From positions 1 through 64,000 of the forward strand of contig JAFSJY010000064.1 in the NCBI GenBank assembly GCA_017449215.1: a stretch of DNA of 64,000 nt, written 5' to 3'. This DNA comes from Acholeplasmatales bacterium (GTDB taxonomy: Bacteria > Bacillota_I > Bacilli_A > Acholeplasmatales > Anaeroplasmataceae). The number at the start of each line of letters is the position of its first letter. Position 1 is the first letter of the stretch. Below, piece after piece: positions 17,919-53,952 of the stretch. The position numbers and the translations under genes were made by a program. Under the pieces are notes generated by a model that did not search any database, was not told where the DNA came from, and was given only the letters and a program-made list of their open reading frames with translations.

Positions 17919-19178
17919 TTATAAATATGGATGCTTACCCATTAATTCTTTTACTTCGTTTTGAACCTTTAATAATTCTTCTTCATTATCAGCATTTCTT
18001 AATGCTCTATCAATCCAGTTAGCAACCTTTCTCATGTCTTCTTCATTGAAGCCTCTAGTTGTAACTGCTGCAGTACCAAGTCTTAAGCCTGAAGTAATTG
18101 TAGGCTTTTGAGTATCATTTGGAATTGCATTCTTATTAGTTGTAATATTTACATCATGAAGAATTCTTTCTGCCTTCTTACCAGTAATACCAACTGAACC
18201 ATAAATATCAACTAAGATTAAATGATTATCAGTACCACCAGAAACTAGCTTATAACCAAGCTTAGTCATTTCATCAGCTAACGCCTTACAATTCTTTACG
18301 ATTTGCTTAGCGTAATCCTTAAATTCAGGTTGTAATGCTTCCTTAAATGCTACAGCTTTACCAGCGATTACATGCTCAAGTGGCCCACCTTGGCATCCAG
18401 GGAATACTGAAGAGTTAATCTTCTTAGCTAATGCTTCATCATTAGTTAAAATCATACCACCACGAGGACCTCTTAAAGTCTTATGTGTAGTAGTTGTAAC
18501 TAAATCAGCATACTCAATTGGATTTGGATGTAAGCCTGCAGCTACTAAACCAGCGATATGAGCCATATCTACCATGAAGTAGCACTTACGTCCAGCCTTT
18601 TCAGTAACCTTATCAGCTACTTCTCTAAACTTCTTGAAATCAATGATTCTTGGATAAGCAGATGCACCAGCAACTATTACATTAGGTAATTCATTTAATG
18701 CAATCTCCTCAACCTTATCATAATCAATAAATCCATCATCAGTTAAACCATAGTTAACTGCTTGATACATCTTACCAGAGAAGTTAACTGAATAACCATG
18801 AGTTAAATGTCCACCAGCATCTAGTGACATACCCATAATCTTTTCACCTGGTAATAAAATAGCGTTATATGCTGCTAAGTTTGCAGATGCACCTGAATGA
18901 GGTTGAACATTTGCGAACTTAGCATTAAATAATTGGCAAGCACGCTCTATTGCTAATGCTTCGATAACATCAACATTCTCGCATCCACCATAATATCTCT
19001 TTCCACAGTAGCCTTCAGCATACTTATTTGTTAAGATTGATCCTTGTGCCTCTAATACAGCCTTTGATACAAAGTTTTCAGAAGCAATTAACTCGATATG
19101 AGTTCTTTGTCTTTCTAATTCTTTTTCAATTGACTCATATATTTCTTGATCAAATTCTTTTAAATTTTTTGTATTCAT
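17919..19178 (-). CDS. glyA: Serine hydroxymethyltransferase
   Basis: A 419-residue PLP enzyme that interconverts serine and glycine and charges tetrahydrofolate with a one-carbon unit. The start at 19178 follows GGAG and gives a normal length. The PLP lysine motif [14 protein letters not shown] is intact, as is [12 protein letters not shown]. Its promoter has an extended -10 inside a 9-base-arm palindrome. With no terminator before the ANTAR gene, glyA and the rnf operon may share a transcript. Confidence 0.97.
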
Positions 19179-33838: not shown

Positions 33839-33974
33839 TTTTGTATTTCTCCTTTCGCCTATAATCGTCGTATAGACTTGCTCCATGGAAAAACCTAACA
33901 CACTGTTAATGACAACACTCTTCGGTGTGTCAGCAACCTTCCACTTCACAGCCATTCATGCTCGATATAGAGCC
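33839..33974 (-). promoter_or_regulatory. Structured leader of the S10 operon (candidate ribosomal-protein leader)
   Basis: About 135 untranslated bases separate the promoter from rpsJ. On the minus strand they contain a GCTC-TATATC-GAGC hairpin, a GACACAC-CGAAGA-GTGTTGTC hairpin and further self-complementary tracts. Leaders of S10 operons are autoregulated by L4 in some bacteria. The structure is suggestive; I cannot confirm the family. Confidence 0.45.
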
Positions 33975-42267: not shown

Positions 42268-42606
42268 TTATTTATTTGTCTTACCAATAATAGACTTAAT
42301 ATAATTATCATTCATTTTAATTTCTAAGAAGGCATCATTAACCAATTTAATCATTTTATAAACGACATCATAAATCTTATTAATCTTTCTATAATAACCA
42401 GAATGACTAATAGAACAATTAGATACTATCTCATCTACCTTTGCTTCGTTATCAATAATATATTCCTTAAGTATCATTAAATAATCATTGCCATATAATT
42501 CCTTACCAAAATCGAAAAAAATACAGGCCAAATTCAATATCAATCTATCATGGCCTGTATTCTTCTCTATTAATTTATCTATTACATTTTTACGTCTCTT
42601 ATTCAT
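42268..42606 (-). CDS. Hypothetical small helical protein downstream of an XRE regulator
   Basis: I do not recognise this 112-residue basic protein. It is predicted to be mostly helical, with no signal peptide or membrane segment. The central IVSNCSISHSGYYRKINK stretch has a faint helix-turn-helix look, but this is not a firm match. It follows a 75-residue XRE regulator by 33 bases, and its ribosome-binding GGAG is unusually far (about 20 bases) from the ATG with a palindrome between. The pair looks like a small regulatory cassette. Confidence 0.6.
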   Translation of the reverse strand: MNKRRKNVIDKLIEKNTGHDRLILNLACIFFDFGKELYGNDYLMILKEYIIDNEAKVDEIVSNCSISHSGYYRKINKIYDVVYKMIKLVNDAFLEIKMNDNYIKSIIGKTNK

Positions 42607-51716: not shown

Positions 51717-52211
51717 CTAACTACCTCTACTAACCTTCTCAATGTATGTTAAAAAGTCTCTAGCCTTTTGAGTTAAAACCTCTAAATTAAAATATTTCAA
51801 AATAGCTCTATATAATTCTTCTCCTTCTAAATCATATTCTTTAACTAAATTCTTAATTTCAGCACTAGGAATATCATAAATTAATCTATCAGAATTAATT
51901 CTTAAATAATCAATATTAAATTTACCAGAGCTTGGCCAAATAATAGTATCATATATTTCATCTTCCATAACATATTTACCCTTATTTAATTCTTCTAATA
52001 TAAATTCTAATGCCTTACCACTAATTTTAGCTACATCAAATATTTCTCTCATTCTAGCCTTTAATGTATTTAATGTAAGTGGAGCTTCTGTTTCTACAAT
52101 AATTTTAATATCGTTAGAAAGTGTATTACTAATAGCTGAAAAATTATTATACAAATCATCTAATGTAATATGTTTTAAATTTACTGCTCTTTCATAATTA
52201 ATAGTTTTCAT
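51717..52211 (-). CDS. Hypothetical protein, weakly like DUF3320
   Basis: A 164-residue protein I cannot place with certainty. The stretch IIVETEAPLTLNTLKARMREIFDVAKIS resembles the short DUF3320 module found at the C-terminus of large helicase-like proteins, here as a stand-alone gene. The rest is helical with a WPSSGKFNIDYLR turn. It has a GGAGG site and its own TAAAAT -10 (52253-52258). It is flanked by a terminator-less gap before rlmI and by the small-RNA region. Function unknown. Confidence 0.6.
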   Translation of the reverse strand: MKTINYERAVNLKHITLDDLYNNFSAISNTLSNDIKIIVETEAPLTLNTLKARMREIFDVAKISGKALEFILEELNKGKYVMEDEIYDTIIWPSSGKFNIDYLRINSDRLIYDIPSAEIKNLVKEYDLEGEELYRAILKYFNLEVLTQKARDFLTYIEKVSRGS

Positions 52212-52353
52212 TTATATCCTCCAAATTTATGAAAAAAGTCACTTCTAATATCATTTTATCATAATTATTTTGTATTACATTAATATATTTATATTCAAAA
52301 CACATTTTTTACCATAATTTTAACGTTTTTCAAATACATTTTTCTAATATACT

Positions 52354-52474
52354 ATAGTTGTATCGAAAGCAAGGCAAAACGTGACCTTTCCCTTCTCATA
52401 CCAAAACCAATGTTTTGTCTTGTTTTCGAGCATATTATTTTTTTCTCCTATAGCCTTCAAAAGAGGCTTTTTTT
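52354..52474 (+). ncRNA. Candidate small RNA: long stem with pyrimidine-rich loop
   Basis: 52363-52382 pairs with 52410-52429 over 20 positions with three G-U pairs. Those wobbles would be C-A mismatches on the other strand, so the plus-strand RNA is the better folder. The 27-base loop contains CCTTTCCCTTCTC, complementary to Shine-Dalgarno sequences. A -10-like TATACT (52348-52353) lies just upstream, with no strong -35. A terminator (AGCCT/AGGCT then six T) ends it near 52474. No known family is recognised: it lacks the SRP, 6S or tmRNA hallmarks. Confidence 0.6.
52452..52474 (+). terminator. Terminator of the first small RNA
   Basis: AGCCT (52452-52456) and AGGCT (52464-52468) form a stem, followed by six T on the plus strand. 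Confidence 0.75.
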
Positions 52475-52525
52475 GTTGTAGATAAAGAATAACGTTTTCA
52501 CAAAATTAAGTAAACCTTTTCATAG

Positions 52526-52553
52526 TTGTTTTTATATTTTTTCACGCTATAAT
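52526..52553 (+). promoter_or_regulatory. Promoter of the second small RNA
   Basis: -35 TTGTTT (52526-52531) and -10 TATAAT (52548-52553) are spaced by 16 bases, pointing right into the short RNA. Confidence 0.7.
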
Positions 52554-52559
52554 GAATGT

Positions 52560-52623
52560 GTCCTAAACAAAAGGACTAAAAACATTTTTTCTCTGAGGTT
52601 ATAGACCTCTTTTTCTTTTTTTA
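52560..52623 (+). ncRNA. Candidate short RNA with terminator
   Basis: A transcript starting about 52560 would begin with a GTCCT/AGGAC hairpin (52560-52576), continue through an A- and T-rich single strand with TTTTTTCTCT, and end in a GAGGT/ACCTC terminator (52595-52609) followed by a long T-rich tract. At about 65 bases it encodes no peptide of note. It may be a small RNA or a start-stop unit of unknown purpose. Confidence 0.55.
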
Positions 52624-52674: not shown

Positions 52675-53952
52675 TTACTTTATAATTGTCTTTCCACCCA
52701 TATATGGTTGTAAAGCCTTAGGAATAGAAACAGATCCATCCTCATTATAATTATTTTCAAGTACTGCAATTAATCCTCTTGGAGTTGCAAGTACTGTATT
52801 ATTTAATGTATGAACTAAATATGTACCATTTTCATTCTTAGTTCTAATACCTAAACGTCTTGCTTGTGCATCACCTAAAGTTGAACAAGAACCAACCTCG
52901 AAATACTTCTTTTGACGTGGTGACCAAGCCTCAACATCACATGACTTAACCTTTAAGTCAGCTAAATCACCTGAGCAGCACTCTAATGTTCTAACAGGAA
53001 CATCTAGGCTTCTAAAGAATTCAACAGTATAGCTCCACATCTTGTTATACCATTCCATAGAATCCTCAGGCTTACAGATAACAATCATCTCTTGCTTCTC
53101 AAATTGATGAACACGATAAATTCCTCTTTCTTCAATACCATGAGCACCAACTTCCTTTCTGAAGCATGGTGAATATGATGTTAATGTAAGTGGAAGCTCA
53201 TTTTCCTTAATGATTTGATTTTTAAATCTACCAATCATTGAATGCTCAGATGTACCAATTAAATATAAATCCTCGCCTTCAATCTTATACATCATGTTTT
53301 CCATTTCAGCGAAGCTCATAACTCCATTTACTACATCTGAATGAATCATGAATGGTGGAATACAATAAGTGAATCCCTTATCAATCATGAAATCTCTAGC
53401 ATATGATAGCATTGCAGAATGAAGTCTAGCTACATCACCAATTAAATAATAGAAGCCATTTCCTGATGTTCTACCAGAAGCTTCCTTATCTAAACCATTG
53501 AACTTAGCAATGATATCAGCATGATATGGAATTTCATAGCTTGGAACTACTGGCTCACCAAACTTTTCAATTTCAACATTCTCTGAATCATCCTTACCAA
53601 CTGGTACTGATGAATCAATGATATTTGGAATAACTAGCATCTTCTTATTTAATTCAGCTGCTAGCTCATCAAGCTCAGGCTCAATTTCAGCAATTCTTGC
53701 GTTATTTTTAGCAACAGTTTCCTTAATCTTATTAGCTTCTTCAATCTTCTTTTCTCTCATTAAAGCACCAATCTGCTTTGAAAGATCATTACGAGAAGCA
53801 CGAAGTGATTCAGCCTCTTGCTTATATGCTCTAATTTTTGCATCTAATTCAATTACCTCATCAACTAAAGGTAACTTAGCATCTTGATATTTCTTCTTTA
53901 TATTTTCCTTTACTATTTCAGGATTTTCTCTTACAAATTTAATATCTAACAT
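52675..53952 (-). CDS. serS: Seryl-tRNA synthetase
   Basis: A 425-residue class II SerRS. The N-terminal long coiled-coil arm (about 30-105) that grips the tRNA-Ser extra arm is clear. The catalytic core has TSEHSMIGRF, SPCFRKEVGAHG (motif 2) and the closing TVLATPRGLIAVLENN (motif 3). AAGGAG precedes the ATG, and a TTGAAA-16-TATAAT promoter with an extended TGA lies upstream; no T-box is seen. Confidence 0.98.
   Translation of the reverse strand: MLDIKFVRENPEIVKENIKKKYQDAKLPLVDEVIELDAKIRAYKQEAESLRASRNDLSKQIGALMREKKIEEANKIKETVAKNNARIAEIEPELDELAAELNKKMLVIPNIIDSSVPVGKDDSENVEIEKFGEPVVPSYEIPYHADIIAKFNGLDKEASGRTSGNGFYYLIGDVARLHSAMLSYARDFMIDKGFTYCIPPFMIHSDVVNGVMSFAEMENMMYKIEGEDLYLIGTSEHSMIGRFKNQIIKENELPLTLTSYSPCFRKEVGAHGIEERGIYRVHQFEKQEMIVICKPEDSMEWYNKMWSYTVEFFRSLDVPVRTLECCSGDLADLKVKSCDVEAWSPRQKKYFEVGSCSTLGDAQARRLGIRTKNENGTYLVHTLNNTVLATPRGLIAVLENNYNEDGSVSIPKALQPYMGGKTIIK

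Follow-up and report, generated by a model that had tools for sequence, protein, structure and literature searches.

Multi-copy putative small RNAs with proposed translation-start-masking motifs and a CssR-type operator in a bacterial family, probably Anaeroplasmataceae

Streptococcal csRNAs carry anti-Shine-Dalgarno (anti-SD) and anti-AUG sequences and respond to CiaR (PMC3091779, PMC8186281). In Listeria, LhrC1-5 block the Shine-Dalgarno sequence by means of three CUCCC...UUUU sites, located in the loop, in the linker and in the terminator loop, and LisRK is needed (PMC4132741). In B. subtilis, CssRS controls htrA (PMC9386232, PMC12826053), and the published box of CssR is TTTTCACA (PMC6749698). 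The CiaR, LisR and CssR systems all act on htrA as well. A literature search, which covered few subscription papers, found no small RNA (sRNA) under CssR and none in the bacterial family considered here; sRNA control is almost unstudied in the lineage of the source genome.

The window analysed is the whole stretch of 64,000 nucleotides from one contig of this genome, an Acholeplasmatales bacterium. At 52354-52474, a preliminary description had recognised on the plus strand a terminator preceded by a 20-pair stem, three pairs of which are G-U, with a loop of 27 bases, and this anatomy is confirmed at the same coordinates. The elements of this copy, named w1, are the following.

52354..52474, plus strand: small RNA copy 1 (w1), class A; start at about 52359-52360; z -6.2; locus shared with eight other species
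52300..52337, plus strand: degenerate TTTCACAT-type repeats of w1, namely ACACAT at 52300-52305, TTTACCATAA at 52308-52317 and TTTCAAATAC at 52328-52337
52348..52353, plus strand: -10 box of w1, TATACT, then 5 nt and TGT(A); the family plan is -10 box, 5 nt, TGTC
52363..52429, plus strand: main hairpin of w1; 52363-52382 pairs with 52410-52429 in an uninterrupted stem of 20 pairs, including 3 G-U
52383..52409, plus strand: C-rich loop of w1, 27 nt; unpaired probability 0.95; holds CCTTTCCCTTCTC at 52385-52397
52431..52448, plus strand: single-stranded linker of w1, CAUAUUAUUUUUUUCUCC; unpaired probability 1.0; anti-start-codon CAU and anti-Shine-Dalgarno CUCC
52452..52474, plus strand: intrinsic terminator of w1; stem 52452-52468, then a T run

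The position of the -10 box sets the start of w1, which reads TGTA where the family has TGTC. RNA folding of the plus strand gives -34.2 kcal/mol, a stability that none of 200 shuffles attains, while the minus strand is unremarkable (z -1.2). The hairpin is the longest uninterrupted one in the window, considering both strands and loops of up to 40 nt; the next two, of 17 pairs, lie at 18873-18924 on the plus strand and at 42514-42567 on the minus strand. CCTTTCCCTTCTC is present as a single exact copy within the window. The absence of a recognisable Rfam family, previously judged by eye, is borne out by a scan of the window with Rfam release 15, which gave no family at gathering score on w1 and low-threshold matches at chance level; the only match in the window is an S10-Clostridia ribosomal protein leader (RF03136) at 33855-33957 on the minus strand. 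The Rfam scan of 17 loci of relatives gave no match to the sRNA units, and its sole match is an unrelated T-box in locus L007. Overall, w1 is very probably a stand-alone, terminator-ended sRNA gene of about 115 nt, whose transcription is predicted from its anatomy and from the family to which it belongs.

The preliminary description had missed a second, short copy (w2) just downstream of w1, which has a TTTTCACA box, a -10 box and a terminator of its own. The features of w2 and the genes flanking the two copies are listed below.

52495..52502, plus strand: TTTTCACA box of w2; single box p = 0.003, pair reached by 0 of 300 shuffles
52548..52553, plus strand: -10 box of w2, TATAAT, from the promoter alignment
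52554..52621, plus strand: short-form small RNA copy 2 (w2), with a GTCC/GGAC hairpin, the linker CAUUUUUUCUC and a terminator at 52595-52609
51717..52211, minus strand: gene for an uncharacterised 164-aa protein, divergent from w1; constant neighbour of class A copies
52675..53952, minus strand: serS (seryl-tRNA synthetase), convergent neighbour; Pfam Seryl_tRNA_N and tRNA-synt_2b

A short second copy resembling w2 is present in one locus of the relatives (L096). Homologues of the 164-aa protein, with 44-67% identity, adjoin class A copies in eight other species, and the pairing of class A with this gene is found in the source genome (G000) and in G009, G013, G012, G010, G017, G015, G003 and G040, with or without serS nearby. 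A Pfam search of the protein gave no family above cut-off, with a weak hint of DUF3320 in the G009 homologue (E 0.058).

The genus was sampled through 27 species genomes, the nearest named records being rumen or gut assemblies labelled Acholeplasmatales, Anaeroplasmataceae or Anaeroplasma; most of the compared genomes are incomplete assemblies, in which absences are weak evidence. Visual inspection and folding of the region downstream of serS revealed, in about ten species, units of the same plan and differing sequence. Each has a promoter, a hairpin whose large loop bears UCUCCC(C), a linker and a terminator, sometimes two or three in tandem, each of the tandem copies with its own promoter and terminator. 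Two patterns built from these units gave, in searches of the genus, 14 true matches vs 0-1 control matches per pattern direction, with reversed controls, and revealed additional copies at other loci. From the genus and from the family, probably Anaeroplasmataceae, 33 related RNAs were gathered. Their common plan consists of a promoter with TTTTCACAT repeats, a -10 box followed by 5 nt and a TGTC start, a hairpin and a terminator; the hairpin arms are unrelated among the 33 RNAs, yet CUCCC is unpaired. Two classes can be distinguished: class A has a long hairpin, while class B has a short hairpin, the loop AAUCUCCCUA and the conserved linker CAUAAGCAAACUAUAACUCUCCCAA. Apart from TGTA at its start, w1 displays the plan of the sRNA family described, with its own promoter, a hairpin with an unpaired CU-rich motif, a CUCC linker, a terminator and a shared locus.

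RNAalifold predicted no common structure on the class B alignment, and for this reason the model of class B, R1, was kept sequence-only. R1 matches 45 of the 55 family genomes, in six or seven genera, with up to 6 copies per genome and E down to 5e-23; outside the family, only two marginal matches were obtained among 105 other genomes of the order. In the source genome, which carries the class A copy w1 and the short w2, no class B copy lies above the R1 threshold. On one contig (G132:C6; L176, L177), an 8-kb stretch contains several short units of class B type whose C-rich segments are identical, an apparent recent amplification.

Other searches were less productive. A DNA similarity search of the w1 region in 40 relatives showed that the immediate sequence is not conserved and gave chance matches only; L002-L004, which fall within genes or close to them, were rejected as being due to chance. 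A long pattern combining the exact operator and promoter had no match. An order-wide pattern was also discarded: it had many matches outside the family, several of which, in genera g9, g10 and g27, are coincidental, being located antisense to a related response-regulator gene. The combination of variable arms with constant motifs accounts for the failure of sequence searches and of Rfam to recover such RNAs. As judged from the sequences compared, w1 is very probably one copy of an undescribed multi-copy RNA family found in one bacterial family. The RNA of the preliminary description is indeed a stand-alone plus-strand unit, but it is not isolated, since it belongs to a multi-copy family with a common promoter element.

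Conservation of the stem and loop in relatives had been proposed as a test of the RNA, and the outcome is divided: structure, loop and motif are kept, while the similarity of the arm sequences is no more than chance. In the 13 class A copies, 10 of 10 inner pairs form in all, with an average arm identity of 30%; the arms were read from each fold, so that the pairing is partly circular and counts as support, not as independent covariation. The class A loops are conserved, with UUUUCUCCCA and AAC kept. In nearly all 33 members, the CUCC nearest the start has an unpaired probability of at least about 0.9. A CAU is found 2-12 nt before CUCC in 18 of the 33 RNAs, while shuffles give 6.3 on average and at most 12. 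In a class A subgroup (L007, L090, L095, L097, L100, L103), AGAAAGGAG precedes the hairpin and CUCCC lies in the loop, an arrangement in which an H-type pseudoknot could hide the anti-SD sequence.

The pairing of these segments with translation starts was computed for 57 start regions within the window. On average, the linker of w1 reaches -11.7 kcal/mol, vs -8.6 +/- 0.33 for shuffled linkers and -5.8 on internal mRNA; the w1 loop reaches -10.8, vs -10.3 +/- 0.33 for its shuffles, which indicates that most of its affinity is due to composition. The loop had been put forward as the binder of ribosome-binding sites: its C-rich anti-SD sequence is present, but it barely exceeds its shuffles and the linker is stronger. 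Since the linker clearly beats its shuffles and the loop hardly does so, CAUAUUAUUUUUUUCUCC at 52431-52448 is, according to these modelled energies, more likely the functional segment of w1 than the loop. The loops of classes A and B show similar behaviour in their pairing with translation starts; the class B linker CATAAGCAAACTATAACTCTCCCAA is only 2.3 sd better than shuffles on these regions, and the w2 linker only about 1.9 sd. Target ranking within the window gave no convincing single target.

Upstream of the -10 box, the family promoters contain TTTCACATAA repeats at -40, -50 and -61, with a spacing of about 10 bp. A strict two-repeat pattern has 15 matches in 55 genomes and 0 in the control, and 13-14 of them precede family members; the sRNAs account for the largest number of exact operator sites. 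TTTTCACA boxes are clear for w2 and for most relatives, while w1 has a degenerate pair only: its TTTACCATAA occupies the same -40 position as the repeat in other copies, and a profile trained on the other copies gives p = 0.033 for the best pair vs dinucleotide shuffles, a weak value from one test among several. In the genus, all 14 standard htrA promoters, that of the source genome included (boxes, p = 0.008), have the repeats at exactly -29, with a spacing of 11; one further Trypsin_2 gene is without the htrA-type repeat. When the source genome was scanned for the operator with 3 mismatches, 47 matches vs 42 in the control were obtained, which is chance level, and only the promoter of the regulator described below is near-perfect. 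TTTCACAT repeats were also observed before predicted lipoprotein genes in L222 (G023:C19) and L278 (G000:C29), which may be further members of the regulon.

Two OmpR-family regulators are encoded in the source genome, and the promoter of one of them (L230) carries the repeats. This regulator shares 67-77% identity with response regulators whose genes, in more than 20 genomes, are preceded at 75-144 nt by a class B unit in sense orientation. The DNA-binding domain of the L230-type regulator has CssR (7cx5) as its best match among solved structures, with 114 bits, the next having 74. PhoP/WalR-type boxes were considered for the TTYACA repeats and set aside in favour of CssR, which fits better in its exact box, in htrA and in the DNA-binding domain. 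The shared operator, htrA, the regulator promoter, the gene linkage and the CssR-like domain together argue strongly for direct regulation of the sRNAs by a CssR-like regulator, whose binding to the boxes is predicted. At L230 (G000:C53, 2157-2330, minus strand), the region before the CssR-like gene has ATCACATATTTTCACA, a -10 box and a terminator-like hairpin and is without the CUCC motif; this site would be either an attenuator or a class B unit that has decayed or changed. Another family of the order has related response regulators (L145-L148, L151, L155, L158, L164, L165), with about 56-58% identity and accompanied by a histidine kinase, but no copy of the sRNA, suggesting that the regulator is older than its sRNA.

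The same evidence bears on readings in which no mRNA is targeted in trans. The w1 hairpin might be a product of chance or a structural element, such as a bidirectional terminator or a REP-like repeat, devoid of RNA function; the lack of conservation of the immediate DNA, for which relatives yielded chance matches only, and the commonness of terminator-like hairpins agree with this. It is nevertheless improbable, because the hairpin is the longest in the window, is restricted to the plus strand, has its own -10 box and a separate terminator, is matched in stability by none of 200 shuffles and has structurally equivalent units at the same locus in eight other species. Marginally less improbable is a cis-acting leader or attenuator, in which premature termination at class B would control the regulator gene that follows it, class A copies being displaced derivatives: class B does lie in sense before that gene, at 75-144 nt, and ends with a terminator, and the equivalent site of the source genome keeps operator and terminator without CUCC. 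However, class A copies, w1 included, have no sense gene downstream, since the 164-aa gene diverges from them and serS converges with them; some class B copies occupy other sites, such as that before serS or before another gene, and every copy of a tandem has a promoter and a terminator to itself.

It is very unlikely that the RNA acts as an antisense RNA on the mRNA of the convergent serS gene, even though units converge with serS in several species: w1 ends at 52474 and w2 at 52621, before the serS stop codon at 52675, so that overlap would need run-past transcripts, and elsewhere the unit adjoins the 164-aa gene but not serS. The alternative to which we give most weight, still a small one, is that the RNA is made but has a protein, not mRNAs, as its target, and serves for instance as a decoy that captures an RNA-binding regulator. 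Repeated C-rich motifs in loops and linkers are also typical of protein-titrating RNAs, and the class B linker is conserved beyond anti-SD needs, while its pairing with translation starts exceeds shuffles by the modest margin given above. Conversely, CAU precedes CUCC in more copies than in any shuffle, loops and linkers strongly prefer translation starts, which points to mRNA pairing, and CsrA decoy RNAs display GGA, not CUCC.

Our preferred reading, which we regard as probable, is that w1 is a copy of a multi-copy family of trans-acting sRNAs, activated by a CssRS-like system via TTTTCACAT and blocking the translation starts of target mRNAs. The two-component system would sense secretion or envelope stress and activate the sRNA promoters through the TTTTCACAT repeats, also driving htrA; the stems would keep single-stranded CAU...CUCC segments open, and these could pair with the Shine-Dalgarno sequence and the start codon of target mRNAs, stopping translation initiation. 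The anatomy, the family, its conserved motifs, the operator shared with htrA and with the regulator's own promoter, and the gene linkage are the observed elements from which we infer transcription, regulator binding, target pairing and repression by the family sRNAs. If this is correct, a whole sRNA family, its likely regulator, its operator and its mode of action are named at once.

Compared with the known systems, the family resembles the streptococcal csRNAs (51-202 nt) in having several copies per genome, stem-loops, unpaired anti-SD and CAU sequences and a terminator; a segment combining the two unpaired elements, as in csRNAs, is found in 18 of the 33 family RNAs, and in w1 it is the linker at 52431-52448. 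Both also share an OmpR-family regulator and direct repeats about one helical turn apart, and the CiaR two-component system also drives htrA (PMC12826053), as proposed here for the CssRS-like system. However, csRNA promoters have TTTAAG-N5-TTTAAG, while the family here has TTTCACAT-type/TTTTCACAT repeats of CssR type in place of CiaR repeats; long class A stems, loops of 23-51 nt, the location of class B directly upstream of a putative regulator gene and the different bacterial order are further distinctions. LhrC1-5 are likewise multi-copy and partly clustered, and LisRK also affects htrA (PMC12826053), but LhrC copies are nearly identical in sequence, unlike the copies here, which in addition have an anti-start-codon element, a different type of regulator and a different lineage. 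Neither the window nor the loci of relatives gave an Rfam match that would indicate LhrC membership, though Rfam holds LhrC families. On anatomy and linkage, the family appears to work like csRNAs and LhrC and to be a member of neither, since the csRNA operator and an Rfam match are both absent. With the CssRS regulon of Bacillus subtilis (htrA, htrB; PMC6749698, PMC9386232) it shares a CssR-like regulator, the TTTTCACA box, htrA and a box in the regulator promoter.

Taken together, these comparisons incline us, with somewhat less assurance than for w1 itself, to the view that a CssR-type secretion-stress system in Anaeroplasmataceae controls htrA and undescribed multi-copy sRNAs that mask translation starts, one subclass lying directly before the regulator gene. 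Among low-GC bacteria, it would be a third htrA-linked stress system to have acquired C-rich anti-initiation sRNAs, beside CiaRH/csRNAs and LisRK/LhrC. If so, operators and RNA sequences apparently differ among the three systems, suggesting a recurrent circuit design, and the idea that envelope-stress systems controlling htrA repeatedly recruit anti-initiation sRNAs becomes testable.
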